DNA of 64,000 bases, from NCBI GenBank assembly GCA_029880265.1, contig JAOUOT010000004.1:1-64000 (forward strand), read 5' to 3'. Source of the stretch: Spirochaetia bacterium (lineage in GTDB: Bacteria; Spirochaetota; Leptospiria; Turneriellales; JAOUOS01). Shown piece after piece: positions 1 through 15,176 of this stretch; position 1 is the stretch's first letter, and each line of letters begins with the position of its first letter. Under the pieces are notes generated by a model, which made no database searches, was not told where the DNA came from, and saw only the letters and a list, made by a program, of their open reading frames with translations. The position numbers were made by a program, and so were the translations under genes.

Positions 1-129
1 CCGTTTAACAGCTTGATTTAATGTTCTTGTCTCAACCTCATAAAGCACGGCTAAATCTCGATCAAGCATAACACGCTTGCCTCTAATCGTCAAAATCTTC
101 TTCGCGATAATATTTTCTGTCTGCGGCAG
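1..129 (-). CDS. ORF6N-domain protein, 5' end only (runs off the window)
   Basis: Read on the minus strand, bases 129 to 1 translate without a stop into 43 residues (beginning [20 protein letters not shown]) that match the start of the ORF6N (phage antirepressor/KilA-N-like) family, including the conserved [16 protein letters not shown] stretch. Family members are DNA-binding proteins common in prophages and mobile islands. No ATG, GTG or TTG lies in this frame just upstream. The only candidate near the family's usual start is the CTG at 129-127, and the bases beyond it belong to the repeat-rich spacer. The gene may therefore use a rare start or may have lost its own start to a rearrangement. 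The C-terminal part lies outside the window. Confidence 0.65.
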
Positions 130-178
130 CGGGGTAAGGGTTTTAAAACTTTTTGGAAAAGTTTTTCAAAAATAGAAT

Positions 179-210
179 GTTACTTTTCTTTGGCAGCAAA
201 GAAAAGTAAC
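179..210. repeat. Perfect 14-bp inverted repeat, 4-nt loop
   Basis: Bases 179-192 (GTTACTTTTCTTTG) are the exact reverse complement of 197-210, separated by GCAG. I recognise this CTTTTCTTTGGCAGCAAAGAAAAG hairpin type as a common dispersed intergenic element of several bacterial genomes. It is the first of several hairpins in the 334-base gene-free stretch 130-463. Confidence 0.85.
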
Positions 211-222
211 CAAAAGAAACTG

Positions 223-282
223 CCCGCAATCGGCCGTCATCCATGACGGATATTGCGGGGTTTGGCTCGGTCATCCTTGACC
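223..282. repeat. Nested hairpins (8-bp outer, 7-bp inner) plus a small 5-bp hairpin
   Basis: Outer arms CCCGCAAT (223-230) and ATTGCGGG (252-259) enclose inner arms CCGTCAT (234-240) and ATGACGG (243-249). A further GGTCA/TGACC hairpin follows at 269-282. The element is much more GC-rich than its surroundings. It resembles REP-like structured repeats; its function is unknown. Confidence 0.75.
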
Positions 283-319
283 TCGCAATGTGCCCCCGGT
301 TTATTTTGTACCATATCTT

Positions 320-380
320 ATTCTGTTAGGGGTCGGTTGCTCGTACCGGCGAAGCCGGTGAAACCCGTGGCTAACAGAAT
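320..380. repeat. 10-bp inverted repeat enclosing a second hairpin
   Basis: ATTCTGTTAG (320-329) pairs exactly with CTAACAGAAT (371-380). Inside it ACCGGC (345-350) pairs with GCCGGT (354-359) over a GAA loop. This gives a two-level cruciform immediately upstream of the methyltransferase gene. Confidence 0.75.
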
Positions 381-414
381 AGTTGACCGCCCATCCCGCA
401 GGAGAATTTTATGA

Positions 415-451
415 CCCACGGCGCTCGTACCCGGAGGGTGATAGCCGTGGG
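415..451. repeat. 8-bp inverted repeat just upstream of the methyltransferase start
   Basis: CCCACGGC (415-422) pairs with GCCGTGGG (444-451), with an ACCC/GGGT stem inside. It ends 13 bases before the ATG at 464, so in mRNA it would form a hairpin in the leader and could affect translation. Confidence 0.65.
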
Positions 452-463
452 CAAAGAAAACAG

Positions 464-1081
464 ATGGATCAAAAAACCCTCGAATACTACCAGCAAAATT
501 CAGATGAAATTTGCAAAAGATACAATTCTGTTTCGACAGAAAAATTTCTGGGTAAATATTTCAAGAATATTTTCCCAGAAAAGAATAAAGAGAAATACAG
601 AATTTTAGATTATGGCTGCGGCAGCGGGCGGGATGTCTTGTACCTGATAAATCAGGGATATGATGCCTATGGTTATGATATTTCTTCTGAAATGATATTG
701 TCTTCCAAAAAGATAAACCCTATTCTGAAAGACCGTCTTTTTGATTCTATCTCATCCTTGAAAGAAAGTGAAAAATATAATTCTGTAATTTGCTCTGCTG
801 TTCTTCAGCATGTGACAGATTCTGAAATTTTAGAAGTTTTAAAAACTATAAAATATTTCCTGAAAGAAAATGGTAATTTGGTCATTAGCTATCCAGTCAT
901 TTATGCAAATTTAGATAATGAAAATCGGGATGATAAAGGCAGACTTCAGATTATCAGAAATTCCGAATTTTACATATCGAAATTAGTCAGCCTGGGTTTT
1001 ACACATGAAAAAGAATGGTTTGATAAAGATTCAATGAATAGAGAGGGTATCTCTTGGCAAACCAGTCTTTTTACATTATGA
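464..1081 (+). CDS. Class I SAM-dependent methyltransferase
   Basis: A 205-residue protein starting MDQKTLEYYQQ. The SAM-binding motif I is plain (ILDYGCGSGRDVLYL, followed about 20 residues later by the acidic YGYDIS of motif II), and the remainder fits a small Methyltransf_11/25-type Rossmann enzyme. A TTG start at 383 is possible in frame, but it would translate the hairpin repeats into a proline- and arginine-rich tail unlike any family member, so the ATG at 464 is preferred. The substrate cannot be told. It lies alone between a hairpin cluster and the HNH gene, in AT-rich DNA typical of the island. A role in defence or toxin biology is only suggested by position. Confidence 0.8.
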   Translation: MDQKTLEYYQQNSDEICKRYNSVSTEKFLGKYFKNIFPEKNKEKYRILDYGCGSGRDVLYLINQGYDAYGYDISSEMILSSKKINPILKDRLFDSISSLKESEKYNSVICSAVLQHVTDSEILEVLKTIKYFLKENGNLVISYPVIYANLDNENRDDKGRLQIIRNSEFYISKLVSLGFTHEKEWFDKDSMNREGISWQTSLFTL

Positions 1082-1121
1082 AATGAGTTGACCTTATAAA
1101 TTGTTTTGCAATAATTGTATG

Positions 1122-2231
1122 ATGTCAATACGCTTGCCAGAATTAGATTATCTGCCTATTGAAAAGTTGAATCAGATTTTCAAAAATACTACAACATCTT
1201 ACAAGTTTTATTGGTTTTTAGCGATATTAGATTATGTTAAAGAAAATGATAAATTAACTGTTTCATTTGCTGATCTATTTTCAAGAATGATTGCTTTTGC
1301 ATGGTATCCAATAAATCACTATAAAATAAATTTTGGCCACCAAGATCAAATTTATAAAATAATTGAGTACTTAAATCAAAATGAAGCAAAACTAAAGCCA
1401 GACATGAAATATAAAGTTGTTGTCGATCAAATTTCTGATATTTATAAAGACTCTAGTGCAAAGTCAGAACAAAGCAGAAAAGAAATATTTCAATTAGATC
1501 GATATGTAATATGCAGGTTTATATCGCCTTTTTTTGATATTAAAAATATTTCAGATAAACAAATTATAATATTGGCAGAAAAAAATTTTAATATTAAAAA
1601 AAAACAGCCAATCTATAGAATTGATAAAGAGAAAAAGGAAATCATAATTCAACCTCAATGGATTGGCTATATAAAAAGATTTAATACTATTTTACAAGAT
1701 TTTACTCTTTGGCATTTGTTAGAATACTTACAGAAAAGAAACCCATATGTTCCAAATTTGGCTAATAAGTTATTTCGGCCAATTGCAAGAGATTTGAAAA
1801 AAGCGAGAATATTTTGGCTTAATGCATTGTCTAGAATAGAGAATCCAAGATGTATATATTCAAATACTGGTCTTTCAAAAGATTTTTCTATAGACCATTT
1901 TTTGCCATGGAGTTTTGTAACGCATGATTTAATTTGGAATACTATACCCACACATAAGAATATTAATAGTATGAAAAGTGACGATTTGCCTCTATTGAAA
2001 ACATATCTAACACCTTTTATGGCAATGCAATATGATGCAATAAATATTATATCCAAACTGGATGACAAAAAAATCCTTGAAGATTACATTATTGGTTTCG
2101 ATAACATAACCTATAGCGATTTAGAAAGTATGTCAAAGGAAAAATTCTTTGAAAGAATCTCAAGACTTATTATACCTCAATATGAAATTGCAAGAAACAT
2201 GGGTTTTTGTGAAAATTGGCTTTATGTTTAA
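1122..2231 (+). CDS. HNH-endonuclease domain protein
   Basis: A 369-residue protein from the ATG at 1122; an ATG at 1119 and a TTG at 1101 are also in frame. The N-terminal two thirds are helical and unassigned. Near residues 245-285 there is an HNH-like core: CIYSNTGLSKDFSIDHFLPW, with Asp258-His259 as the expected catalytic pair, followed by LIWNTIP and a later Asn. The usual zinc-binding CxxC knuckles are reduced to a single Cys, so the zinc site is probably absent. HNH enzymes cut DNA, and proteins of this layout occur in restriction-like loci. It is followed by 253 bases before the next operon, so it is probably a separate unit. No partner methylase is adjacent except the small methyltransferase upstream. 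Confidence 0.75.
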   Translation: MSIRLPELDYLPIEKLNQIFKNTTTSYKFYWFLAILDYVKENDKLTVSFADLFSRMIAFAWYPINHYKINFGHQDQIYKIIEYLNQNEAKLKPDMKYKVVVDQISDIYKDSSAKSEQSRKEIFQLDRYVICRFISPFFDIKNISDKQIIILAEKNFNIKKKQPIYRIDKEKKEIIIQPQWIGYIKRFNTILQDFTLWHLLEYLQKRNPYVPNLANKLFRPIARDLKKARIFWLNALSRIENPRCIYSNTGLSKDFSIDHFLPWSFVTHDLIWNTIPTHKNINSMKSDDLPLLKTYLTPFMAMQYDAINIISKLDDKKILEDYIIGFDNITYSDLESMSKEKFFERISRLIIPQYEIARNMGFCENWLYV

Positions 2232-2484
2232 TGTTTTAATTATGGCTGATGTTTCGGGGGCCTTGACCCGTCCGGCGAGCAAAAAATAAACTGCTATTTT
2301 ATTGTGAGTTCGGGTGGATTAGACAAGGTATCCCAAAATGTTTTGAGCACATAAAAAAAACAATTGATCTAATGTCTCTTTAGATGAAAACTATATCTTG
2401 AGGTAAGATGTGATGCGATCCCCGAAGGCGTTCGTAGTCGCGCCCGAGCATATTTAGATGCAGTGACTTATTGGGAAAAGTTTG
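2232..2484. other. Spacer with imperfect palindrome, no gene seen
   Basis: No ORF of note. Starting near 2262 there is a long imperfect inverted arrangement (CCTTG and ACCCG on the left, CGGGT and CAAGG on the right, ending near 2325) with a short AATAAA/TTTATT stem inside. A GC-rich patch lies at about 2413-2450. The composition differs from the flanking AT-rich genes. A GGGA motif (2473-2476) serves as ribosome-binding site of the next gene. Confidence 0.45.
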
Positions 2485-3381
2485 ATGAATCAAATTGAAT
2501 TTGATATAAAAGCATATGAGTATACCACTCGTACTTACATTCAATTTTTAATTGAAACACACCAATGGGAACCATTAGGCATCGATGATATTAACTCATG
2601 GTTAGAAAACTTCGGCGATCAAATAGGTCGGTATTATGGCCTCAGAATACTAGTAAATTGTAGTTATTATTCAGAAAAACATTTGATACGACTTTTGAGA
2701 AAAGGCTTGCATGATGAATTGATTTATAGAGAGATTATGGCCAACATTGACATAGAAAAAGCATTGAATTATCCATTAACATTTTATAATTCAAAAGCGT
2801 ACGATTATTTAGGTAAAACAATCTTTATACCACTTTTGCATAGTGATGTTCCATCTGAAAGTGGCTATTGGCTTGTACGTACACTTGTTACCCAACAAAT
2901 CATTCATCAGCACAATCAGACATATCCGACCGATTTAGATAAAATTAAAAACTACGAAAATATAATAATAGTTGATGATTGCATTGGTACAGGAGAACAT
3001 ATTAGGGACTTTATCAATAGCAATGTGTATAAAGAGCTCAAAAATTTAGGTAAGAAGATAATATTCTTAGTTGCTGTTGGTGCCAAGGAAGGTGTAAAAT
3101 GTATCGAAAAAATGAATGTTGATATTCGGTGCATCGAAGTACTTGATGAAAACAGGAGAATATTTGGTAATCATGGAAACGTATGGAAAGACGATGAAGA
3201 AAGATGCGCCGCAATTGACTATTTTAAAGAAGTGGAAAAAAATAGAGGTGTAACAATGTTAGGTTATAAAAAGATGGATTATGCAATGATCGTTCAAAAC
3301 AATATTCCAAATTGGAGTTTACCTATTCTTTGGAAAGAGACTGCTGATTGGCAGCCTTTAATTCGTAGAAAATCTTCGTAA
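2485..3381 (+). CDS. Phosphoribosyltransferase-like protein, first gene of an unrecognised operon
   Basis: A 298-residue protein. The diagnostic PRPP-binding motif of type I phosphoribosyltransferases is present as VDDCIGTGEH (Val163 to His172, with Asp164-Asp165), preceded by the hydrophobic strand NIIIV. The N-terminal half is helical. The C-terminus has the NNIPNWSLPILW stretch seen in PRTase-like proteins of defence-type loci, which suggests a special family and not nucleotide salvage. The ATG at 2485 is chosen because GGGA lies 8 bases upstream; a TTG at 2482 is adjacent. Only 5 bases separate it from the ATPase gene, so the three genes 2485-6225 form one transcription unit. The biochemical activity is unknown: it could transfer, or merely bind, a phosphoribosyl compound. 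Confidence 0.75.
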   Translation: MNQIEFDIKAYEYTTRTYIQFLIETHQWEPLGIDDINSWLENFGDQIGRYYGLRILVNCSYYSEKHLIRLLRKGLHDELIYREIMANIDIEKALNYPLTFYNSKAYDYLGKTIFIPLLHSDVPSESGYWLVRTLVTQQIIHQHNQTYPTDLDKIKNYENIIIVDDCIGTGEHIRDFINSNVYKELKNLGKKIIFLVAVGAKEGVKCIEKMNVDIRCIEVLDENRRIFGNHGNVWKDDEERCAAIDYFKEVEKNRGVTMLGYKKMDYAMIVQNNIPNWSLPILWKETADWQPLIRRKSS

Positions 3382-3386
3382 CGAGT

Positions 3387-5300
3387 ATGAATAACCCATT
3401 TAAAGCATTTAGAACAGAGCAACTTGGCGATGACCCTTGGAAGTATTTTATTCAGGATAAAGCATTACAGGATTTGTTAAGTTCGAGACCCCTAATATTT
3501 GAAGGTGGTAGAGGGTCAGGGAAAACCATGTTTTTCTACTGCAATTCCTGGCTTGAAAAATTTAAAAAGATTTTAGCAGAAGGTCAAGATATTAAACAAC
3601 AATTTAATGAAAAAAATTACATTGGTTTTTACTACAAAGTTGATGCTAACTTTATTACGAATTTTCAAGGAAAGGCGATTGAAGAGTCAGTATGGGATGA
3701 TATATTTTCTACCTATCTCAATTTTATTGTTGCCCAGGATATAATAAAGTTTTTTGAAAAATGTATTGAATTACAGGTACTAGAGAATAATCATTTAGCA
3801 GATATATTTGATTATTTGGAATTACGACTTGAGAATAAAATAAATAATACTAATAATGCAAAGCGAGTAATTCAATCAAAGATAGAAGAAATAGTCGATT
3901 TTGTTAATAATCCAACGGATGAGGCAAAACCAAAAATTTTTCATTCAGGCGCATTAACGAATTCGATATTAAGCAAAGTTAAGGAGGTAAATATTTTTCA
4001 AAGTACTCATTTTCGTGTATTTATTGATGAGTTTGAATTTTTGACAGAGAACCAACAAAAACAGATTAATACTTTGATTAAAATGAGTAACTCGACAATA
4101 ATTTATGATATTGCGGTCAAAACAAATGGCAGGAAAACCAAAGAGACACTGAATAAAGATGAGTTAATACAAGAAAAAAATGATTATAAGTATTTTAGAC
4201 CTGAGGTGGAAATCGAAGAAGATGATTATGAAAAACTGCTAAAAGAAATTTGTCGAAAAAGATTCCAAAAACTTTATCAGGATTTATGTATTCAAGATAT
4301 TAAAGAAGAGTGGCTAGATATAAGTTATTATTTAGGTGAACATAATATTAACGATGAGGTGTTATTATACGAAAAACATGAAAAAAAAGCGGCTTTAATA
4401 AATGAAGTAAGGGATATAATAAAGAAAAAAATCATCGATGAAAAACTTACTGATGAATTTGCAAATATTTTAACTGACTGCGATATATTGCATATCAGGG
4501 TTCATAAAAGTCTATTATTAAGAGATAACATGAAACCCGAGGATTTAGTTAAAGAATTCCAACTTTCAAAAAACCGGGAAAGCAAACGGTATACCCAGTG
4601 GTTTAATCAAGGTAAAATGGGTGCTCTCTTTTTGCTAAGCAAAGAATTTAAAATACAAAAACAATACTATGGCTTTAATACATTTGTATTACTTTCTTCA
4701 GGTGTGATCAGAAGTTTTATAGAATTATGTGAGCATAGCTTTGAAATTGCAACAATGAATAAATTCTCTTTTACAAAGCCTAGAATGATTACGCCAGAGG
4801 AGCAAACTATAGTTGCCAAATATATTTCATCGAAAAAGATTAATATACTTAGTTCTGAAAAGCCATACGGTAAGAATTTGGTACAATTCGTCAATACCAT
4901 CGGTAATATTTTTTACCGAATACATACAAGAGCAAATCATACATTATCACACGTTGAACAAAATCATTTTTTTACTAACCGATTGGAGCTAAGGCCAGAT
5001 GTAGAAAAAATTATTGATAACGCTCTAATGCATAATGTCTTAATTAAGAAGTTGCCAACTAAAAAATCAGAAGAGTCAATTGAAACAGAAGATTTCCATT
5101 TGAACCATATTTACTGCCCATATTTCAATATTTCATATAGAACAATGTATAAAATCAAGATTGAACCTGATGATCTGGAAAAGCTATTATTAGGAAATAA
5201 GCCAGACTTAATGAGGTCGGTTAAAAAGATACTGGATTCAATGAATGTTAGAGAAAAATTTGATCTCGATAGTATAGCTGTACAGAGAAATCTATTTTAA
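3387..5300 (+). CDS. P-loop ATPase (ORC/Cdc6-like or STAND-like), second gene of the operon
   Basis: A 637-residue protein with Walker A GGRGSGKT at residues 40-47 and Walker B VFIDEFEF at 211-217. The acidic Asp-Glu pair and the following Phe-Glu are typical of AAA+/ORC-like NTPases. A stretch near 240-260 (SNSTIIYDIAVKTNG) could carry sensor I. The C-terminal ~250 residues are helical with a winged-helix-like feel, but I cannot assign a domain. There is no signal peptide or membrane segment, so it is cytosolic. It follows the PRTase-like gene by 5 bases and is followed by the third gene after one base. The probable role is the energy-using or sensing core of the module. Exact family assignment is uncertain. 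Confidence 0.75.
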   Translation: MNNPFKAFRTEQLGDDPWKYFIQDKALQDLLSSRPLIFEGGRGSGKTMFFYCNSWLEKFKKILAEGQDIKQQFNEKNYIGFYYKVDANFITNFQGKAIEESVWDDIFSTYLNFIVAQDIIKFFEKCIELQVLENNHLADIFDYLELRLENKINNTNNAKRVIQSKIEEIVDFVNNPTDEAKPKIFHSGALTNSILSKVKEVNIFQSTHFRVFIDEFEFLTENQQKQINTLIKMSNSTIIYDIAVKTNGRKTKETLNKDELIQEKNDYKYFRPEVEIEEDDYEKLLKEICRKRFQKLYQDLCIQDIKEEWLDISYYLGEHNINDEVLLYEKHEKKAALINEVRDIIKKKIIDEKLTDEFANILTDCDILHIRVHKSLLLRDNMKPEDLVKEFQLSKNRESKRYTQWFNQGKMGALFLLSKEFKIQKQYYGFNTFVLLSSGVIRSFIELCEHSFEIATMNKFSFTKPRMITPEEQTIVAKYISSKKINILSSEKPYGKNLVQFVNTIGNIFYRIHTRANHTLSHVEQNHFFTNRLELRPDVEKIIDNALMHNVLIKKLPTKKSEESIETEDFHLNHIYCPYFNISYRTMYKIKIEPDDLEKLLLGNKPDLMRSVKKILDSMNVREKFDLDSIAVQRNLF

Positions 5301-5301
5301 T

Positions 5302-6225
5302 ATGTATAAGCCTGTATTTAAATTTCAAGACTGTAAGGACTATCTCTTAAGTACAATCGATATATTAATTATTGGTAATAGTAGTGAAGAAAGGTGTTCT
5401 TATATGAAAAGCCAATATTTGAAAACAGATATTGAAATCGTAGAAATTGAAATGAATAAGGTTGATAATAATGACCTATTATGCGTAGTAAGTAACAAAG
5501 GATTTTTTGAAGAAGAGAAAAAATGGCCATTTTATCAAGGTATGCCAAAAGTATTAGATAAATTAAATATAACGAATAAGAACGTATTGCTGGACATAAC
5601 TGGATTGCAGGTAAATATCATATACTACTTAATAAAATTAATGATAACAAAATATACGCCACAATTATTATTTAGTTGTTACATAGAACCAGATGAATAC
5701 ACAAAGCTTGAGGCAGACCAATATCTTTTAAATGAAGAGGTTTTTGGTTTAAAAGCTATACCTGGTTTTGCTAAATATAAAGAAGAGGCAGATAAAAAGA
5801 TATTAATAGCTTTTTTAGGTTTTGAAGGTGAAAGATTATTAAAAATTATTGAAGAACAACATTCAGATGCTATAGTATATCCAGTGATATCTTTTCCAGC
5901 TTACAAATCTTATTGGAATTATATAGCTCTAAAAAAAAACTATGAAGCATTGAATAATGTAGATTTCTATAAGGATATCGCTTATTACGATGCCCGTGAT
6001 CCAATTGATACGATGAATGTAATTAATACAATATATAATAAAAATCATAGAAAAACGGTTCTTATTACTTCGCTTGGTACAAAGCCAACGATCCTTGGTG
6101 TGGCATTATCAGCGAGTCATAATAAACATATACACCCTATTAGTGATTATCCACTTGAAAGTGAAAAGAAAAGTAGCGGTATAGGCAGGATTTCTATATA
6201 TCCTATTTCAAAGTATACTTTATAG
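5302..6225 (+). CDS. Rossmann/CARF-like protein of unknown function, third gene of the operon
   Basis: A 307-residue protein that begins one base after the ATPase stop. It has two similar alpha/beta halves. The first contains ILIIGNSSEERC (EERC at 29-32) and VLLDITGLQ (Asp98). The second contains KILIAFLGFEGERL and VLITSLGTKPTILGVAL (Ser257 to Pro262). DITG and LGTKP loops after beta strands recall nucleotide-binding Rossmannoid sensors such as CARF domains, but this is an impression from motifs only. No catalytic nuclease motif is visible. Position suggests it works with the ATPase and PRTase-like protein, perhaps as a ligand-binding sensor. The function is otherwise unknown. Confidence 0.65.
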   Translation: MYKPVFKFQDCKDYLLSTIDILIIGNSSEERCSYMKSQYLKTDIEIVEIEMNKVDNNDLLCVVSNKGFFEEEKKWPFYQGMPKVLDKLNITNKNVLLDITGLQVNIIYYLIKLMITKYTPQLLFSCYIEPDEYTKLEADQYLLNEEVFGLKAIPGFAKYKEEADKKILIAFLGFEGERLLKIIEEQHSDAIVYPVISFPAYKSYWNYIALKKNYEALNNVDFYKDIAYYDARDPIDTMNVINTIYNKNHRKTVLITSLGTKPTILGVALSASHNKHIHPISDYPLESEKKSSGIGRISIYPISKYTL

Positions 6226-6310
6226 TGACTTGTAATATTCTCATCTGAGGCTTATCTTGGAAAAATAATTCAGTCATTGCATCTAGCTAAGCCTCGTCAA
6301 ACCCCAAACC

Positions 6311-6359
6311 CGGTCGTCGAGCCGAGTCGTTAGCGAAGCTCGCCGGAGGCTGACGACCG
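6311..6359. repeat. GC-rich hairpin element between convergent genes
   Basis: CGGTCGTC (6311-6318) pairs exactly with GACGACCG (6352-6359). AGCC (6320-6323) pairs with GGCT (6348-6351) with one bulged G, and a small GCGA/TCGC stem sits at the tip. It separates the rightward operon from the leftward XRE gene and could act as a bidirectional terminator without a U-run, or be a mobile hairpin like those at the left end. Confidence 0.6.
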
Positions 6360-6360
6360 C

Positions 6361-6591
6361 TTAACCAAACCCCTCCTTAAAAAACTCTTTCAACTCAAGC
6401 CCAAAGCCTTTACAGATTTTTTCCAGCGTATCAATTCTAACGGCTGGCGGTTTTTTGCTTTCTAATAATTGAATGTGTTTATAATCAACTCCTGATAATT
6501 CGGCCAGTTTCTCTTGTGTGAGATTTTTTTCTGCTCTTAGCTGGCGTAATCTATCACGAATTTTAAGGTTTATGCTAATTTCGCTTGACAC
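6361..6591 (-). CDS. XRE-family helix-turn-helix repressor
   Basis: A 76-residue protein, essentially a single Cro/CI-type HTH domain. The pattern LRQLRAEKNLTQEKLAELSG is followed by the recognition helix VDYKHIQLLESKK and the closing helices VRIDTLEKICKGFGLELKEFF. The GTG start at 6591 is used; no ATG is in frame. The gene is divergent from sspB with 71 bases between starts, and this gap contains two mirror-image palindromes (6602-6640) that are near-ideal operators. It most likely represses its own gene and the ssp operon. Small XRE regulators of this size commonly control restriction-type or toxin loci to delay expression on entry into a new host. Confidence 0.9.
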   Translation of the reverse strand: MSSEISINLKIRDRLRQLRAEKNLTQEKLAELSGVDYKHIQLLESKKPPAVRIDTLEKICKGFGLELKEFFKEGFG

Positions 6592-6601
6592 GTTGAATAA
6601 T

Positions 6602-6640
6602 ACCGTATTTATACGGTCTTGTACACCGTATAAATACGGT
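6602..6640. promoter_or_regulatory. Twin operator: two 16-bp palindromes between XRE gene and sspB
   Basis: ACCGTATTTATACGGT (6602-6617) and ACCGTATAAATACGGT (6625-6640) each have perfect 7-bp arms around a 2-base centre, and each is the reverse complement of the other. Their centres are 23 bp apart, about two helical turns. Each contains a TATAAA that could serve as the -10 box of one of the two divergent promoters, so a bound repressor would block both directions. Confidence 0.88.
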
Positions 6641-6662
6641 GTTTTGGTTTTTTAGGCAATAA

Positions 6663-7562
6663 ATGACTTTATATTTTGCAAAACATGAAACCTTTCAGCC
6701 TCGCCATGGCTGGTTTAAAAAATGTTTTGATGCTATAATTTGTAAACCTAATTTCTTTCAAACAGCAGATGCTCATGTAAAACTTGGCGTTGGAAAGAAT
6801 ATGCTAAAAGCCATTTATTTTTGGGGTCAGGCATTTAAAATTGTTAATAAAAAAGATTCGGCAAGTAATTTATACGCAACAAAATTGGGGCGGTTCTTAT
6901 TTTCAGAAAATGGTCTGGATAAATATTTAGAAGATACCGCGACCCTGTGGCTTTTGCATTATTTTTTGCTGAAAAAGCCGACCATCGCAACGGCTTGGCA
7001 TTTTGCTTTTCATGAATTTTTTTACAGAGAGTTTAGCGGCGATGATTTATTGATTGGCCTTTCTAATTATGCTGCAAAAATTCAAAATAAAACAGCAGTA
7101 TCATCTTTAATAAAAGATGTTAACTGTATACTTCGTATGTATACAGAAAATATTAAATACTACAGAAATCTTGAAGACATTTTATTGTCACCTTTTAATG
7201 AATTGCAATTAATAAAAAAAATAGGTAACTCAAATAAATATATTTTTAATACAAATTATAAAAGACATCTGCCCCCTGAAATCATTACCGCAGTTTGTCT
7301 TGATTATGTCTCATCGCAGGAGACAAGAACGAATACGATATCGTTACCAAAACTAACCCATGAAAAAGGCAGTCCGGGGATGGCTTTTAAGATAAACGAA
7401 AAAATTATTGAAGAGGCGATTGAAGAGACTTCGGCGAAACACAAGGCGGTTAAAATGGCAAGCTCGGCGGGTATCGCGCATCTTGCTTACGAAGGCGAAC
7501 CCTCCCTCATATTTAACGATCTGCTTCGCGCGTATTACAATAAGAAACCGGCGGTTGTATGA
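6663..7562 (+). CDS. sspB: SspB-like DUF4007 protein (phosphorothioation system)
   Basis: A 299-residue protein with the DUF4007 signature at the N-terminus (FAKHETFQPRHGWFKKCFDA, then VKLGVGKNMLKAIYFW). In the described SspABCD system the DUF4007 protein SspB is a DNA nickase that opens one strand so that sulfur can replace a backbone oxygen. Length matches the family. It is the first gene of a tight four-gene operon; its stop overlaps the next start by 4 bases (ATGA). Expression probably depends on the twin operators directly upstream. The first three quarters are AT-rich and the last quarter, from about 7400, shifts to the GC-richer composition of sspC, which is unusual inside one gene and may mark an old recombination joint. 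Confidence 0.9.
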   Translation: MTLYFAKHETFQPRHGWFKKCFDAIICKPNFFQTADAHVKLGVGKNMLKAIYFWGQAFKIVNKKDSASNLYATKLGRFLFSENGLDKYLEDTATLWLLHYFLLKKPTIATAWHFAFHEFFYREFSGDDLLIGLSNYAAKIQNKTAVSSLIKDVNCILRMYTENIKYYRNLEDILLSPFNELQLIKKIGNSNKYIFNTNYKRHLPPEIITAVCLDYVSSQETRTNTISLPKLTHEKGSPGMAFKINEKIIEEAIEETSAKHKAVKMASSAGIAHLAYEGEPSLIFNDLLRAYYNKKPAVV

Positions 7563-10500
7563 CGTCTTTAACGCGCTTCATCTCTGTCGAAAGACGCTAC
7601 GCCCGCTCGGTCAGCCTTGAGCGCGACCTGCTTCACGCCGAAAGCGCGCTTGGTTACGTGTGCGCGCGAAAAAGCGAAGAAATTCTCGAACGCTTCGTCA
7701 AATCTCTCGAAGATTCCCGCTCGGTTTCGGCCTATACCCTGACCGGCGTTTACGGCACGGGAAAGTCGGCCTTTGCCCACTTCTTAAGCGCCTTAACGGC
7801 CGCGGGTTCTGAACCCATTAAAAAAAACGCGCTTGGTATTTTCTCAAATAATAAAACGCAGAAGCAGTTAAAAAGTTTTTTTGCGGATGTACTGCCTGCT
7901 GCCGGTTTTTTGCGCGCGGTCATCACCGCGAAAAATGAACCGGTTACCCGGTCGGTCTTGCGCGCCATTTTATGGGGAGCCTCTCATTACTTTGAAGGCA
8001 AAAAACCGCCGTTTGTCGCCCGTGCGAAAAATCTTTTGAAACAAGAGAAAAATCCGCCTGCTCACAAGGTACTTGAAATTATAGCAGAAGCTTCAAACAC
8101 AGCCGAGGGGCTTCTTATCATCATCGATGAAATGGGCAAGACCCTCGAATATACGGCGCGCGATATGGCATCGCCCGATCTCTTTTTTCTCCAGCAGATT
8201 GCCGAGATGTCAAACACGAAAGGCGGCAAGATTATTTTTATGGGGCTTTTGCACCAGTCTTTTGACGAGTACGCCGTTAATTTGACCTCGGCCATGAAAA
8301 ACGAGTGGGCAAAAGTGCAGGGACGCTTTGAAGACATCCCCTTTTACGAAAGCGCCGAAGACACGCTGCGCGTCATAAAAAGCGCCATCGTTCATGACTA
8401 TAAAAAAATATCCAAAGAAACAAGCAATGCCCTTGGCAATATTTCAAAAAGCTGGCATGATGCGTTAAAATCAAATGCCGCGTTTCATGCGGCGCCCGAA
8501 GAACTTTTGCGGGGGCTTTATCCTTTGCATCCGGTATCGGCGCGTGCCTTGCCCATTTTATGCTATAAATTTGCCCAGAACGACCGCTCTCTTTTTTCGT
8601 TTTTATCAAGCCGCGAACCGCGTTCTTTTCTCTCTTTTTTAGAAGTAAATTTCATAAAAGATACCGGTCTGCCCATGCTTAAAATCGCCGCGCTTTACGA
8701 TTACTTTGTAGAGTCGGCCGGCATCGGCTACAGGCCCGGCTTCCAGAGATGGGTAGAGGTTCAGCAGAAAGTCGAAGAGGCTTATTTTTACGGCGATGAC
8801 CATACCGCCGTATTAAAGACCATCGGCATCTTAAACCTTCTTGCCTCTTCGGGCGCGTTTAGGGCCTCAAAAAAAATGACTCTGCTTTCGCTCGTTGACA
8901 ACCCAAATGACACGGCGGCGCTTAAAAAATGGGAAAAGGTCATTGAAGAACTTGAAAAAGGCGGATTTATTACCTACAGAAAAAGCCTCGATGAATACAG
9001 AATCTGGCACGGATCCGATTTTGATATTGAAGAGGCTCTCTCAAAAACTTCTGCCGATATGAATTTTTCTCTGGCTTCTCTTTTAAATGAAAATTATCCC
9101 GCGAAACCCAATATCGCCCGAAGACACAGCTACGAGACGGGTACCTTAAGGTTTTTTTCTACAACTTACGCCGACTCTTTAACCGATGTTTCTTCTTTAA
9201 ATTATAACGCTTTAAACCCCGACGGATTTATCTTCTGCTGGGTCGATAAAAAATCTCCCGATGAATTTATAAAAAAGACAGAAGAAAGCTTAAAAAACGC
9301 AAGCGAGAAAAAACCGGCTGTTTTTATCAAACCCCGTCATCTTGATAATCTTAAAAAAGCGGCTTTAGAATATCATTCGCTTAAATCTCTTCGAAAAAAC
9401 AGCGCCGAGCTTCAAAATGATAAGGTGGCCTCAGGTGAAGTCAACAAACGCCTTTATCTCGTAGAAAATCTTTTAAGAAATTCTCTTGAAACGGCCTTTT
9501 CTTTTTATACAGAAACAGAAATTTTTTATAACGGCGAAAAAGAGAAAATACAAAACAAAACCGCATTTAACCGCTTTTTGTCAGAAGTATGCGATAATAT
9601 TTATTCAAAGAAAACAGTTATCATTAACGAACTTATAAACCGCCGCGACATGACATCGCAGGGGGCAAAGGCGCAAAAATTTCTCATGCGCGCCATGCTT
9701 GAAAACTGCGGCAAAGAAAGACTGGGCCTTGAAGGCTTCGGCCCCGAAACAACCATTTACGAGACGCTTTTAAACAAAAGCGGAATTTACGCGATTCGCG
9801 AAGACAGGCTTTCTTTTGACGCGCCCCATAAAAAAAGCGGGCTTTCTGCGGCGTGGCTGGCGGTAGAAACATTCTGCTTAAAGAGCGATAAAAAACCGGC
9901 GCAGATAAACAAGCTTTATGAAAAACTCACGAAACCGCCCTTTGGCATTCGCGAACCTGTTTTGCCCGTTTTGCTTCTTGCCGTTTTAATCAAACATGCC
10001 GACTCTTTAAGCCTTTACCATAACGGAACTTTTGTTGCGGTCATCGGCGAAGAGCATATTGACCTTCTTATTAAAAGACCTGAAAATTTCAGCATAAAAT
10101 ATTTTGACCTCGGCGGGCTGAGGGGTGAATATTTCAAAGAACTTGAAACGATTTTCCAGAAGAACGCAGAAAAAGCCGCCGGTAAAATATCTGTTCTTGG
10201 CGTTGTAAAACCGTTCATAAAATTCGTAAACCGTCTGCCCGATTACACGAAAAACACAGGCTCTGTTTCGGTTGAAGCCAAAAACATATTAAATGCCGTT
10301 TTAATCGCCCGCGAACCCGATGAACTTTTATTTCACGACATTCCCCGCGCCCTCGGATACCACACCGGCGATGATTTTTCAGCGACAGTCATTAAAGACA
10401 TTAAAGATAAACTGCGCGAAAAGCTTGTCGAACTTCAAACGGCTTATGAAAAGCTGGTAAAAAAATGCCGCGATTTTCTTTTTCACTCTTTTACCATTTC

Positions 10501-11095
10501 AAGCGAAATTGAAAAAATACGCGAAGAGCTAAGGGTGCGGTCGAAAAAAATTATAAACCAGTGCGCAGAACCGGTTTTAAAGCGTTTCTTAATCGCGGCT
10601 GTCGATGAAAATCAAGAAGAAGAAAAATGGCTTGAGGCGGTTATCATGGTCATTGCCGATAAACCTCCCGCTTCATTTAAAGACGAAGATATCGAACAGT
10701 TTGAAATGAATCTGTTTTCTCTCGCGCGGCGGTTTCAAAATCTCGAATCAATGGCTCTGGCGTCCCACAAAAGAAGCGACGGTTTTGAGGCAAGAAAGGT
10801 AAGCGTCACCAAACCCGATGGCACAGAATACCAGGAAGTCGTCTATATTGAAAACAAAACTCGTTATAAAATAGAACAAATCATATCAAAACTGTTAGAA
10901 GAACATAACAGCTTAAAAGACAAAAAAGCGGTTTTGGCGCTTCTTGCCGATAAAGTCATACAATCAGAAACCGAAAAAAAAGAAAATAATGTTTTTTCCC
11001 GCGAAAGAAAACAAAAACAAGCCGCGCAGAAAGAACAAAAAACTGAAACAAAACTCATTAATATTCAAATCAACAAATCGGGGGGCATATCATGA
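7559..11095 (+). CDS. sspC: SspC-like large P-loop ATPase
   Basis: A 1178-residue protein. Walker A is GVYGTGKS at residues 63-70 and Walker B is LLIIIDEMGK near 185. The rest is a long helical body ending in a lysine- and glutamine-rich tail. Large ATPases of this sort sit between the DUF4007 and PAPS-reductase-like genes in ssp operons (SspC) and supply the energy for DNA handling during phosphorothioation. It overlaps sspB and sspD by 4 bases each, implying coupled translation. It resembles BrxC of BREX in general plan, but no other BREX gene is present. It shows no frameshift or internal stop. Confidence 0.88.
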   Translation: MTSLTRFISVERRYARSVSLERDLLHAESALGYVCARKSEEILERFVKSLEDSRSVSAYTLTGVYGTGKSAFAHFLSALTAAGSEPIKKNALGIFSNNKTQKQLKSFFADVLPAAGFLRAVITAKNEPVTRSVLRAILWGASHYFEGKKPPFVARAKNLLKQEKNPPAHKVLEIIAEASNTAEGLLIIIDEMGKTLEYTARDMASPDLFFLQQIAEMSNTKGGKIIFMGLLHQSFDEYAVNLTSAMKNEWAKVQGRFEDIPFYESAEDTLRVIKSAIVHDYKKISKETSNALGNISKSWHDALKSNAAFHAAPEELLRGLYPLHPVSARALPILCYKFAQNDRSLFSFLSSREPRSFLSFLEVNFIKDTGLPMLKIAALYDYFVESAGIGYRPGFQRWVEVQQKVEEAYFYGDDHTAVLKTIGILNLLASSGAFRASKKMTLLSLVDNPNDTAALKKWEKVIEELEKGGFITYRKSLDEYRIWHGSDFDIEEALSKTSADMNFSLASLLNENYPAKPNIARRHSYETGTLRFFSTTYADSLTDVSSLNYNALNPDGFIFCWVDKKSPDEFIKKTEESLKNASEKKPAVFIKPRHLDNLKKAALEYHSLKSLRKNSAELQNDKVASGEVNKRLYLVENLLRNSLETAFSFYTETEIFYNGEKEKIQNKTAFNRFLSEVCDNIYSKKTVIINELINRRDMTSQGAKAQKFLMRAMLENCGKERLGLEGFGPETTIYETLLNKSGIYAIREDRLSFDAPHKKSGLSAAWLAVETFCLKSDKKPAQINKLYEKLTKPPFGIREPVLPVLLLAVLIKHADSLSLYHNGTFVAVIGEEHIDLLIKRPENFSIKYFDLGGLRGEYFKELETIFQKNAEKAAGKISVLGVVKPFIKFVNRLPDYTKNTGSVSVEAKNILNAVLIAREPDELLFHDIPRALGYHTGDDFSATVIKDIKDKLREKLVELQTAYEKLVKKCRDFLFHSFTISSEIEKIREELRVRSKKIINQCAEPVLKRFLIAAVDENQEEEKWLEAVIMVIADKPPASFKDEDIEQFEMNLFSLARRFQNLESMALASHKRSDGFEARKVSVTKPDGTEYQEVVYIENKTRYKIEQIISKLLEEHNSLKDKKAVLALLADKVIQSETEKKENNVFSRERKQKQAAQKEQKTETKLINIQINKSGGIS

Positions 11096-11889
11096 GCAAA
11101 AAAGAAAGACATGTTCTAGGCTTATCAGGCGGTAAAGATTCTGCGGCCCTAGCTGTTTATCTGCATGATAAAATTCCGGGTATTGAATATTTTTTCTGCG
11201 ATACCCATAAAGAACTGCCCGAAACTTATGAATTTCTTGATAAGCTAAAGGCTCGTCTTGGCATTCATATCGAATATTTAAGCGCCCAGCGCGGTTTCGA
11301 TCACTGGCTTGAACTTTATAACGGTTTTCTGCCTTCGCCCCAGCAGAGATGGTGCACCATACAAATGAAAATCAGGCCCCTTGAAGAATTTATCGGCAGC
11401 GACGAGGCTGTAAGTTACATAGGCATTCGCGCCGACGAAAACCGTTCGGGCTACGTATCGACAAAGCCGAACATAAAACCCGCGTTTCCTTTTGTTGACG
11501 ACGGTCTTGGTAAAGAAGATATCATAAAACTTCTTGAAGAAAGCGGCATCGGCATGCCCGAATACTACAAATGGAGAAGCCGGTCTGGCTGTTATTTCTG
11601 CTTTTTTCAGAGAAAATACGAATGGGTAAAACTTGCCGAACACCATCCCGAATTTTTTGAGCTATCTAAACAATACGAAAAAGAACACTCCGACGGACGC
11701 ATCTACACATGGAACGCCGGCGAAACCCTTGAAGAACTCTTAAAAAGAAAAGATACCATTATCGCTGAAAATGAAAAAAGAGTCGCCAGAGAAAAAAAGA
11801 ACAAACCAAACAAGCCGCTTCATGAAGCCTTAGCTTCTGTCTTAGACGACGAAGACGATGAAGAGCCCTGCATTGCTTGTCATTATTAA
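11092..11889 (+). CDS. sspD: SspD-like ATP pyrophosphatase / PAPS reductase-family enzyme
   Basis: A 265-residue protein with the PP-loop SGGKDS at residues 12-17, which binds ATP and adenylates the substrate, as in PAPS reductases, DndC and SspD. Four cysteines likely to carry sulfur or an Fe-S cluster are Cys167 and Cys170 (GCYFCFF) and Cys260 and Cys263 at the extreme C-terminus (CIACHY). In the pathway it would activate DNA backbone sites and take sulfur from the desulfurase encoded by the next gene. It starts within the last codons of sspC. The C-terminus is acidic (DDEDDEEP). Confidence 0.9.
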   Translation: MSKKERHVLGLSGGKDSAALAVYLHDKIPGIEYFFCDTHKELPETYEFLDKLKARLGIHIEYLSAQRGFDHWLELYNGFLPSPQQRWCTIQMKIRPLEEFIGSDEAVSYIGIRADENRSGYVSTKPNIKPAFPFVDDGLGKEDIIKLLEESGIGMPEYYKWRSRSGCYFCFFQRKYEWVKLAEHHPEFFELSKQYEKEHSDGRIYTWNAGETLEELLKRKDTIIAENEKRVAREKKNKPNKPLHEALASVLDDEDDEEPCIACHY

Positions 11890-11898
11890 AAAATTTTT

Positions 11899-11925
11899 CT
11901 CTGTGTACTCTGTGCCCTCTGTGGC
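11899..11925. repeat. Three 9-base tandem units CTCTGTGNN
   Basis: CTCTGTG occurs at 11899, 11908 and 11917, with a regular 9-base period. Tandem CTCTGTG units of this kind are scattered in intergenic DNA of many unrelated bacteria. Here they occupy the only real gap in the ssp operon, between sspD and sspA, directly before the sspA start. Confidence 0.8.
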
Positions 11926-11945
11926 TAATTACAGAAAATAAAAAA

Positions 11946-13127
11946 ATGAAAGAAAATAAAAAACTCATCTACCTCGATTCTATGGCAACAACGCCCGTCG
12001 ATAAAAGAGTTTTTGAATTCATGACGCCTTATTTTTTAGAAAACTACGGCAATGCCGACAGCGTCGATCATGATATGGGCCTGCGGGCGAAAGAGGCGGT
12101 TAAGACGGCAAAAAAAGAAATAAGCAGCCTTGTTAACGCGTTTAACAGCGAAATCATTTTCACATCGGGCGCGACAGAATCAATCAACATGGCTTTGAAA
12201 GGTTTTGTCAAAAGGCTTTTAAGAATAAAACCATCCGCCGCAACTGAAAAAATAAAAATAGGCGTCTCGCCCGTTGAGCATAAGGCCGTTTTAAATGTTT
12301 TGGAATCGTTAAACGAAGACAATCTTATTGAACTTCATATTTTTAACTGCGATGATAAAGGCAGGCTTTATCTTGAAGAGATTGAATCGTATTGTTCCAA
12401 ATCGCCTCACTTGATTTGCGTGATGGCGGTAAATAATGAAACAGGCAATATATACCCGGTAAAAGAGATTTCAGAGATTGCCAAAAAACACAATGTTAAA
12501 TATTTCTGCGACGCTACGCAGGCCGCCGGTAAAATACCTTTTGAGTTTTCTAACTGGGGTATTGACGCTGCCTGTATCTCGGCTCATAAAATGTACGGCC
12601 CTAAAGGCAGCGGCGCCTTGATTTTCAATAAAGATTTTCTCATAGACCCAATCATCGAAGGCGGCGCCCAGCAAAAAGGTTTCAGAGCCGGCACCTTAAA
12701 CATCCCCGGCATCGTGGGCCTTGGCAAAGCATGCTTTTACAGCGAAACAGAAATGGCCGAAGACGCTAAAAAAATGATCGAATTAAAAACTCATTTAAAA
12801 AAAAGACTGTGTGAAAACATTGGCGATATTGTTTTTACGGGCGATGATGAAAACCAGATTTCAAGCTGTCTGTATTTTGCCGTCCCCGGCATCATCAATA
12901 AAGCCATTATTGCAAGGGTGCGAAATAAACTCTGCATCTCAACCGGCTCGGCCTGCAATAGCGGCCTAGAAACACCGTCTCATGTCTTAAAAGCCATGAA
13001 TCTGCCCGAAGAAATCATCGAAGGCGCCTTAAGAATCAGCTTTATGAAAGATACAACTATTGAAGATATCGATACCTCCGCCAACATAATCGCAAAAGCG
13101 GTACATGAAATGAAACGACTGGTATAA
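11946..13127 (+). CDS. sspA: SspA-like cysteine desulfurase
   Basis: A 393-residue pyridoxal-phosphate enzyme of the NifS/IscS class. It begins MKENKKLIYLDSMATTPVD; an in-frame start at 11877 would only add translated repeat DNA. The PLP lysine is Lys215 in SAHKMYGPKGSGAL. The sulfur-accepting cysteine is Cys337 in STGSACNSGLETPSHVL. It would take sulfur from L-cysteine and pass it to SspD. The order B-C-D-A puts the desulfurase last, unlike the A-first order usually quoted. After it there is a promoter for an unrelated gene, so the operon ends here with no sspE in view. Confidence 0.9.
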   Translation: MKENKKLIYLDSMATTPVDKRVFEFMTPYFLENYGNADSVDHDMGLRAKEAVKTAKKEISSLVNAFNSEIIFTSGATESINMALKGFVKRLLRIKPSAATEKIKIGVSPVEHKAVLNVLESLNEDNLIELHIFNCDDKGRLYLEEIESYCSKSPHLICVMAVNNETGNIYPVKEISEIAKKHNVKYFCDATQAAGKIPFEFSNWGIDAACISAHKMYGPKGSGALIFNKDFLIDPIIEGGAQQKGFRAGTLNIPGIVGLGKACFYSETEMAEDAKKMIELKTHLKKRLCENIGDIVFTGDDENQISSCLYFAVPGIINKAIIARVRNKLCISTGSACNSGLETPSHVLKAMNLPEEIIEGALRISFMKDTTIEDIDTSANIIAKAVHEMKRLV

Positions 13128-13153
13128 CAGTCAATTTTTTTCAGTTATTATAT

Positions 13154-13182
13154 TTGACATTCTTAAATAAATAAAATAATAT
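13154..13182 (+). promoter_or_regulatory. Strong sigma-70-type promoter
   Basis: TTGACA at 13154-13159, a 17-base spacer, and TAATAT at 13177-13182 (an overlapping TATACT follows). It would start transcription just ahead of AGGAGA (13191-13196) and the small leader ORF, reading on into the hemolysin III-like gene. Confidence 0.7.
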
Positions 13183-13202
13183 ACTATATCAGGAGAAATA
13201 TA

Positions 13203-13316
13203 GTGAGTTCCACAATCGATGAAATTACATCAGCCAAAATACCTGCATGCAGGTATTATCGAAGGCCGTTTTCAACTTCCTTTGCCATAATGGGAAGCTT
13301 TTTAAGGATTTCATAA
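13203..13316 (+). CDS. Possible 37-codon leader peptide upstream of the hemolysin III gene
   Basis: A GTG-started ORF, MSSTIDEITSAKIPACRYYR onward, ends with TAA at 13314-13316, ten bases before the next ATG. It has the best ribosome-binding site in the area (AGGAGA, 6 bases before GTG), whereas the gene after it has none. This is the arrangement expected of a leader ORF whose translation feeds or controls the downstream gene. The sequence matches no family I know. It contains a 20-bp perfect palindrome. It could instead be the remnant of a longer gene. Confidence 0.45.
   Translation: MSSTIDEITSAKIPACRYYRRPFSTSFAIMGSFLRIS
13238..13257. promoter_or_regulatory. 20-bp perfect palindrome inside the leader ORF
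   Basis: AATACCTGCATGCAGGTATT reads identically on both strands. It lies about 56 bases downstream of the -10 box. It could be a repressor site acting as a roadblock or, in RNA, one half of a dimerising stem. Confidence 0.6.
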
Positions 13317-13326
13317 TTTAACGAAT

Positions 13327-13950
13327 ATGTACAGAGGCGAGCGATTTAATTCAATTACGCATTTGGTTGGGGCGGTTTTCTCTCTGGCGGCTTTATCTTC
13401 TCTTGTTATTCTTGCTTACCAGAAAGAAGATACATTGAAAATTATAAGCTTCAGTATTTATGGGGGGTCTCTTTTTCTGCTTTATCTTTTTTCAACTCTA
13501 TACCACAGTCTACGCGGGAAAGCAAAAGACTTTTTCAGAAAAATGGACTATATTGCCATATACTTTTTGATTGCCGGCACTTATACCCCCTTTACGCTTA
13601 TTTCGCTTCAACATAACCCATGGGGCTCTATTCTATTCAAATTAATCTGGGGGCTCGCGGCCATAGGAATTTCTATTGAATTGATAAAAAAGACCGGGCA
13701 ACTTAGTATACTTCCGGTTTTTATATATCTGGTTATGGGATGGCTCATCATGCTGGCCATAAATCCGCTGATGCAGATTTTATCAAACACAGGAGTTCTT
13801 TTACTGGCAAGCGGGGGCATTTTCTACACGGGTGGGGTTATCTTCTTTGCTCTGGATAAAAGATTGCGGCACGGGCATGGTATCTGGCACCTTTTCGTTC
13901 TAGTCGGAAGCATATGCCATTTTCTATGTTTACTGCTTTATGTTTTGTGA
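13327..13950 (+). CDS. Hemolysin III / TrhA family membrane protein
   Basis: A 207-residue integral membrane protein with seven hydrophobic segments, the standard length and plan of the hemolysin III (YqfA/TrhA, PAQR-like) family. Recognisable are the N-terminal FNSITHLVGAVFSL, STLYHSL after the second helix, MDYIAIYFLIAGTYTPF, and the final GHGIWHLFVLVGS with the family's conserved histidines for a metal site. Bacterial members act in membrane-lipid or energy homeostasis; the hemolysin name is historical. It lacks a Shine-Dalgarno sequence and probably depends on the upstream leader for translation. Confidence 0.9.
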   Translation: MYRGERFNSITHLVGAVFSLAALSSLVILAYQKEDTLKIISFSIYGGSLFLLYLFSTLYHSLRGKAKDFFRKMDYIAIYFLIAGTYTPFTLISLQHNPWGSILFKLIWGLAAIGISIELIKKTGQLSILPVFIYLVMGWLIMLAINPLMQILSNTGVLLLASGGIFYTGGVIFFALDKRLRHGHGIWHLFVLVGSICHFLCLLLYVL

Positions 13951-13981
13951 TAATATTATTTCTGAAAAACGTTTATAGATA

Positions 13982-15176
13982 TTACATCTTTTCATTTATA
14001 TTTATAGTTCTGCCATGTTCGTCAAAACGCTGCAATACCACCCTGTATGCGTCAAGGGTTCCCTGCAAAAAAGAATCAGCTGAACCCCAGAGATACAATT
14101 GAAATAGTCGAAACATGTTTTCGCCCCATCGTTTCGTTATCTCTTTATGTTTCTTTTCGAGATTTTTGGCCCATTGCCTGCATGTAAGATAGTAACTGTA
14201 TCTGTCATTATAGATTTTTTTTATTTCAAATTTAGATTTAGACAGGTGCCTTAAAAATTCATGAAGACAAAAATAGGTATGATTTCCGGGAAACACATAT
14301 CGGGCGATAAATGTAGGTTTTGTGTTTTTCGCGCGGTCTGAACTTGCGTCAAGATATACAAAACCGCCCGGTTTTAGTAATTGATAAAATTTCTTAATTA
14401 CAGTTTTGTAATTTGTAAGGTGCTCCATAACGCCAAGAATCACGATTGCGTCAAAGGGCTCTTTCGATTTATATTCATAAAAATCGGCAAACTTAACTGT
14501 ACAGGGTATATTCAGGCGTTGTATCAGATTTTGTATGTATGCTTCAGAATGTTTAGATATTGTTATAGAGGTAACTTTAATTCCCTGCAATCCCGCGTAT
14601 TCAGAAAAAACACCCCATCCCCCGCCTACATCAAGAACACGGGACCCGGGTTTTAACCCGCAGGCATTCATCACAAATTTTAATTTGCGTCTTTGGGCCT
14701 GTTCCAGCGATTCATTATCTTTTTCATAGATTGCCTGAGAATAACAACGTGTTTTATCCATAAAAGAAAGGTATAATTCATCTTCATATTCATAATGTTT
14801 AAAAATGGCTCTTCTATCTGTTTTAATTTGTCCAATGATAGCGGGAATCATTTTTCTAAAAATGAAATGCAGCGGATGGGTGTCTGCGAAAATGCCGCGT
14901 ATTGCCATGAGCTTGGGCATTTCGCCTTCAAGGCATATGGAACCATTCATGTAGGCTTCGCAAAATTCTAACTGGTCAAAGCTTGAAAATGCTTTTAACC
15001 CATCTTCATTTATGATTTTTATACACAGTGAGGGTTTGCCTTTGCCGAAATCATAGCTTTTATCGTTGAAAAAATCAATCTTAAATGGTATACGAATACG
15101 ATCTGCCAGTTTATTTCTTATTTTATCGTTAATCTTTTCAATCGCAAACAGGCGCCCTGTTTTTTTTTTGATTCAT
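13982..15176 (-). CDS. Cyclopropane-fatty-acyl-phospholipid synthase-like methyltransferase, frame-interrupted at an A10 run
   Basis: The uninterrupted part, ATG at 14950 to 13982, encodes 322 residues with the CFA-synthase SAM site (GSRVLDVGGGWGVFSEYA) and the VMEHLTNY and KPGGFVYLD segments. The same frame stays open for another 74 codons upstream and encodes the family's N-terminal domain (for example IRIPFKIDFFND and FCEAYMNGSICLEG), but it has no start codon and runs into a stop at 15175-15173. An ATG at 15176-15174 lies in another frame, just before ten A residues on the coding strand. With nine A's, that ATG would read straight into the N-terminal domain and give a normal ~397-residue enzyme. 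As written the gene is off. The explanation could be phase variation, transcriptional slippage, recent inactivation or a sequencing error. The enzyme would methylenate membrane lipids or a related substrate. Confidence 0.85.
15160..15169 (-). repeat. Homopolymer of ten A (coding strand) at codons 3-6
   Basis: Ten consecutive T on the plus strand immediately follow the start region of the CFA-synthase-like gene. A run of this length is prone to slippage, and its present length puts the gene out of frame. Confidence 0.9.

Follow-up and report, generated by a model that had tools for sequence, protein, structure and literature searches.

A phosphoribosyltransferase, ATPase and CARF gene trio as the probable core of a modification-dependent defence system

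Relatives of the PRTase-CE family are the effectors of type III-A retrons, in which they have no CARF partner, and phosphoribosyltransferases (PRTases) also function in DprA-PRTase/ShosTA defence. The gene trio described here lies in a 64,000-nucleotide stretch of a Spirochaetia bacterium contig (hereafter the window). Like type III-A retrons, it encodes a protein of the PRTase-CE effector family (PADLOC PRTase_III-A, 6e-28), but its partner set is a methylase, an ATPase and a CARF protein instead of a reverse transcriptase and a retron RNA; at the window locus, there was no reverse transcriptase among the 10 genes scanned and no Rfam match in 1-14000. With DprA-PRTase and ShosTA, the module would share a PRTase as the toxic arm combined with a DNA-related sensor. 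Its predicted sensor, however, combines an ORC/CDC6-like AAA+ ATPase with a CARF protein, a DNA methylase accompanies them, and a profile scan of the window trio's neighbours found no member of the DprA family.

The CARF effectors of type III CRISPR systems (Can2, Card1, Csm6 and Cam1) have the same fold with two lobes per chain. In contrast to these, the CARF6-clade protein of the module stands alone: the host has no Cas10 that passes the cut-off, and no CRISPR genes were recognised at the window locus. BREX, MADS and Ssp/Dnd also combine a DNA modification enzyme, presumed to mark self, with an ORC/CDC6-clade or other ATPase; unlike them, the module has no PglZ, PglX or SspE, has a PRTase as putative effector, and contains an ATPase with no PADLOC match. 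In Thoeris, TIR and ThsA are the signal maker and the sensor. If the PRTase were a signal maker, the module would likewise pair a NAD/nucleotide enzyme with a Rossmann-type ligand sensor, but with a PRTase for the NAD enzyme and a DNA methylase and an AAA+ ATPase in addition.

Genes and families of the window trio

The trio (2485-6225) consists of three intact co-oriented ORFs, each opening with ATG (2485, 3387 and 5302) and separated by 5 bases and then by 1 base (Table 1), the arrangement described in the first-pass annotation. That annotation had also reported an intact PRPP-binding motif, clear Walker A and B motifs in a 637-residue ATPase and a two-lobed, Rossmann-like or CARF-like third protein, and the profile, alignment and structure comparisons agreed with it on each of these. 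The first protein matched PF24390 over its full length (E=9.7e-45, 153.8 bits, cut-off 27); its PRPP loop VDDCIGTG (DDxxGTG) is intact, and D165, D166 and G171 are invariant in a 68-row alignment. AlphaFold (AF2) models of the PRTase and the CARF protein were built from relatives. The best PDB matches of the PRTase model (pLDDT 91) were orotate, uracil and adenine PRTases.

Table 1. Features of the window at and around the trio
Feature	Position	Strand	Basis and reading
Small SAM-dependent methyltransferase (Methyltransf_23)	383..1081	+	Profile match; Ssp-locus neighbour, not a DNA N6-MTase
HNH_4 nuclease-like protein, 376 aa	1101..2231	+	PF13395; part of the Ssp locus, not of the module
PRTase-CE family phosphoribosyltransferase	2485..3381	+	PF24390, PADLOC PRTase_III-A, AF2 model; predicted effector
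ORC-CDC6-like AAA+ ATPase, 637 aa	3387..5300	+	PF24389; predicted DNA-bound sensor/switch
Two-lobed CARF protein, CARF6 clade	5302..6225	+	PADLOC CARF6, AF2 model; predicted ligand sensor or regulator
XRE-type HTH protein	6361..6591	-	Profile match; probable ssp operon regulator
SspB, SspC, SspD and SspA phosphorothioate DNA-modification genes	6663..13127	+	PADLOC

The ATPase matched PF24389 (E=1.1e-92, 312 bits, cut-off 27). Its Walker A (GGRGSGKT) and Walker B (FIDEFE) motifs are intact, and the Walker residues are invariant across relatives; the window ATPase forms a long branch with at most 28% identity to relatives. The third protein matched the PADLOC CARF6 profile PDLC01913 (E=2.6e-41), and its AF2 model (pLDDT 86) matched the structures of Cam1, Can2, Card1, Csm6 and Csa3. 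For Cam1, Can2, Card1 and Csm6 the match probability was 1.0, with a partial alignment (TM about 0.3 of the query). The EERC, DITG and SLGTKP loops, picked out by eye at first, are among the most conserved motifs of the CARF protein. Used as the sole query in a scan of the genome collection contigs, the window CARF protein gave no matches.

The first-pass annotation could not match the trio to a named system. Indeed, PADLOC 2.0 contains no model for the ATPase and no system for the set, and NCBIfam gave no useful name for any of the three window proteins, but each protein does belong to a catalogued family (PF24390, PF24389 and CARF6). The accessions PF24389 and PF24390 are consecutive, which suggests that the curators may have known the pair. 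No description of the set was found in the literature searched, which did not extend to the CARF census by Makarova et al. (2020) or to most subscription papers. In addition, a system containing a PRTase was validated by DefensePredictor, with its composition given only in a figure. Because of the census and that figure, an earlier description of the set may exist. With its parts catalogued and the literature coverage partial, we do not rate the system as categorically new; it is probably a methylation-associated abortive defence system of known parts, apparently unnamed as a set.

The trio as a conserved unit normally travelling with a DNA adenine methyltransferase

ATPase-based searches yielded 89 loci, 79 from a scan of the species-genome collection and 10 from plasmids and IMG/VR. 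In all 84 loci with sufficiently long contigs, the order PRTase-ATPase-CARF was kept and an N6-type DNA methylase adjoined the trio; four methylase-less loci and one PRTase-less locus were cut by contig ends, and the PRTase was split into two ORFs in two loci. Among the 85 loci holding a methylase, it was located upstream (32), downstream (22) or downstream on the opposite strand (31). Clearly, the cluster is recurrent, and the proposition that the three genes never co-occur elsewhere, which the first-pass annotation had named as an argument against a module, is false. The module was right as to the conserved trio, but the usual unit has four genes, the trio plus a DNA methylase; the methylase had been missed because the window copy is without one.

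The hosts span six phyla, namely Pseudomonadota, Bacteroidota, Planctomycetota, Campylobacterota, Thermodesulfobacteriota and Acidobacteriota. Employing tblastn with the ATPase, we found 149 plasmid records, of which 130 were from Klebsiella and 134 were predicted to be conjugative; the CARF protein was found in 147 records with nearly the same organism counts. RefSeq labels the genes of the Klebsiella set as 'hypothetical protein' (three times) and N-6 DNA methylase. If our interpretation is correct, considerably more than 100 sequenced conjugative plasmids of Klebsiella carry a four-gene defence system that has gone without a name.

Evolutionary distances of the PRTase, ATPase and CARF protein co-varied (Spearman 0.48-0.64), and those of the MTase co-varied weakly with the trio (0.13-0.31). 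In 24 of 160 close pairs, the MTases were less than 30% identical, indicating methylase swaps. Selection on each of the four genes is purifying (dN/dS 0.04-0.28 where measurable). A divergent subtype B, present in Rhizobiales, Moraxella and one prophage-like contig, carried an MTase of the N6_N4 class in 6/6 loci, and the C-terminus of the Klebsiella MTase resembles type I specificity subunits.

The putative effector has been exchanged at least once. In one genome (G047), SIR2_2 is fused to an ORC-type ATPase where the PRTase would be, accompanied by a CARF6 gene and two additional genes, of which one is DUF6884; the SIR2 part matched ThsA models. Four Pseudomonas loci carry a SIR2_2 gene between the CARF gene and the methylase. 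Known NAD-degrading effector domains therefore sit in the place of the PRTase or beside it. Downstream of the SIR2-ORC/CARF pair, a 369-aa gene (L129 3302-4408) showed a weak NCBIfam match to DpdA (E=0.006, 15.5 bits, cut-off 200), with no support from Pfam, PHROGs or PDB for a DpdA-type transglycosylase. As a hint, it might be another swapped DNA-marking enzyme, a 7-deazaguanine transglycosylase.

In 9 loci of three clades, a dUTPase_2 gene shares the operon, and 4 Rhizobiales loci contain ThyX; these neighbours point to pyrimidine nucleotides. They also speak for a plain operon of nucleotide salvage, or for a regulator of such an operon, as does the fold of the PRTase, which matches salvage enzymes. 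Yet the constant partners are a DNA methylase, a DNA-type AAA+ ATPase and a CARF protein, the occurrence on plasmids and prophage-like contigs is patchy, and only 2 of 393 genomes of the window host's phylum match PF24389 over the cut-off. A salvage operon is already disfavoured and, in our judgement, very improbable.

The Ssp locus around the window trio

As noted at first, the trio is AT-rich (30% GC vs 42% for the ssp genes) and is flanked by an HNH gene and an Ssp system: the HNH gene comes first, then the trio, then SspB-C-D-A. It is the surrounding locus, not the trio, that carries the SspA-D set of an Ssp phosphorothioate system (PADLOC matches: SspB 2e-96, SspC E=0, SspD 2e-115, SspA 3e-121). 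We rejected the HNH and HTH genes as parts of the module, as both accompany Ssp in relatives: proteins 40% and 36% identical to the HNH_4 protein adjoin Ssp genes in G055 and G156, and HTH homologues do so in G160 and G156. Three copies related to the window Methyltransf_23 gene lie beside HNH-HTH-SspC in G156. Relatives of the same order that have no trio also carry HNH, small methyltransferase and HTH genes next to Ssp genes; the simplest reading is therefore that the trio was inserted into a phosphorothioate locus, between its HNH gene and its HTH-SspBCDA genes. Among the sampled loci, only this one combines the trio with adjacent Ssp genes.

The first-pass annotation had also taken hairpin repeats as the bounds of this DNA. 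The GC-rich flanking hairpins are single-copy in the genome and unlike each other; they are thus not boundary repeats and were rejected as boundaries of a mobile element. A near-perfect palindrome (6599-6643), a likely operator, lies where the HTH and SspB genes diverge. An HNH_4 protein of 373-376 aa adjoins Ssp in three genomes of the same order (the window gene at 1101-2231; L156 12022-13146; L159 8736-9857) and is a candidate alternative Ssp nuclease; in G090, its place beside SspB is taken by a 752-aa protein (L158 5401-7659), DUF262/SspE-type by eye. The sole GmrSD_N gene of the genome was rejected as the Ssp restriction partner; it is located more than 130 kb away beside McrBC, and the McrBC pair and this gene lie near the far end of the same contig (L132 4275-9934; G000 C26 about 140274-145933).

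The window trio has the gene order and the common strand of the module. A DNA methyltransferase adjacent to it is missing on a contig that starts at window base 1: the module MTase profile had no match in the window, and the N6_Mtase and N6_N4 matches of the same genome fall on other contigs. Since the contig begins there, a methylase may lie farther upstream. In our sample, this trio is the sole untruncated PRTase-bearing member without a DNA methylase nearby. That isolation, together with the long branch and the embedding in another system, would suit a methylase-less remnant that drifted into the Ssp locus and no longer works. We consider a remnant improbable, as the ORFs are full length and tightly spaced and keep the residues that are invariant in the PRTase, the Walker motifs and the CARF protein.

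Proposed mode of action

The module is probably a conserved, modular, modification-dependent defence system with an exchangeable effector acting on nucleotides or NAD. More specifically, we regard it as fairly probable that the trio is the core of a mobile abortive defence system of this kind that works as follows. The methylase would mark host DNA, and the ORC/CDC6-like AAA+ ATPase would assemble on DNA and detect invader DNA that is unmarked or replicating. A nucleotide ligand may be bound by the CARF protein, which would gate or read the resulting state. The PRTase would then be released or activated and use PRPP to disrupt the nucleotide pool, probably its pyrimidine branch, with abortive infection as the predicted outcome. 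Weighing against this defence explanation are the absence of a methylase from the window, the long branch of the ATPase and the lack of a second Ssp-adjacent trio.

In the window copy, phosphorothioation may replace methylation as the self mark, because the methylase is missing and the trio lies inside an Ssp locus. That Ssp provides the mark is possible but doubtful; if it does, the window copy offers a test of phosphorothioate substituting for N6-methyladenine.

The genes examined included no recognisable nucleotide cyclase, and the genome of the host (about 92% complete) contains no Cas10 above cut-off, with one sub-cut-off palm-domain match. A source of the CARF ligand is therefore needed, and it would be supplied if the PRTase, or SIR2 in its place, made a PRPP- or NAD-derived nucleotide that is sensed by CARF6, with the ATPase executing or licensing the final step. 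CARF folds bind nucleotide ligands, and both PRTase and SIR2 perform ribosyl-nucleotide chemistry. However, the ATPase would then be the sole dedicated effector left, and the PRTase-CE relatives in retrons act as effectors where no CARF protein accompanies them. We regard a signal-making PRTase as unlikely. Its extension to a CRISPR-independent CARF signalling pathway, in which the ATPase detects that a DNA mark is missing (methylation, or phosphorothioation for the window copy), the PRTase or SIR2 makes the messenger for the stand-alone CARF6 protein, and mark chemistry and enzyme are interchangeable, appears slightly less likely still. The effector role of the PRTase is favoured over the messenger role because PRTases are effectors in retron III-A and DprA-PRTase/ShosTA. 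Should the proposed defence mechanism hold, a CARF sensor would be tied to DNA marking without CRISPR, and PRTase effectors would gain a defined sensor, making their cellular effect directly testable.

Near the module methylase, a P-loop ATPase of about 570 aa (with a zinc ribbon in L097) and a protein of about 280-330 aa recur together (L049, L050, L061, L063, L064, L097 and L126), possibly as a six-gene extended form of the system.
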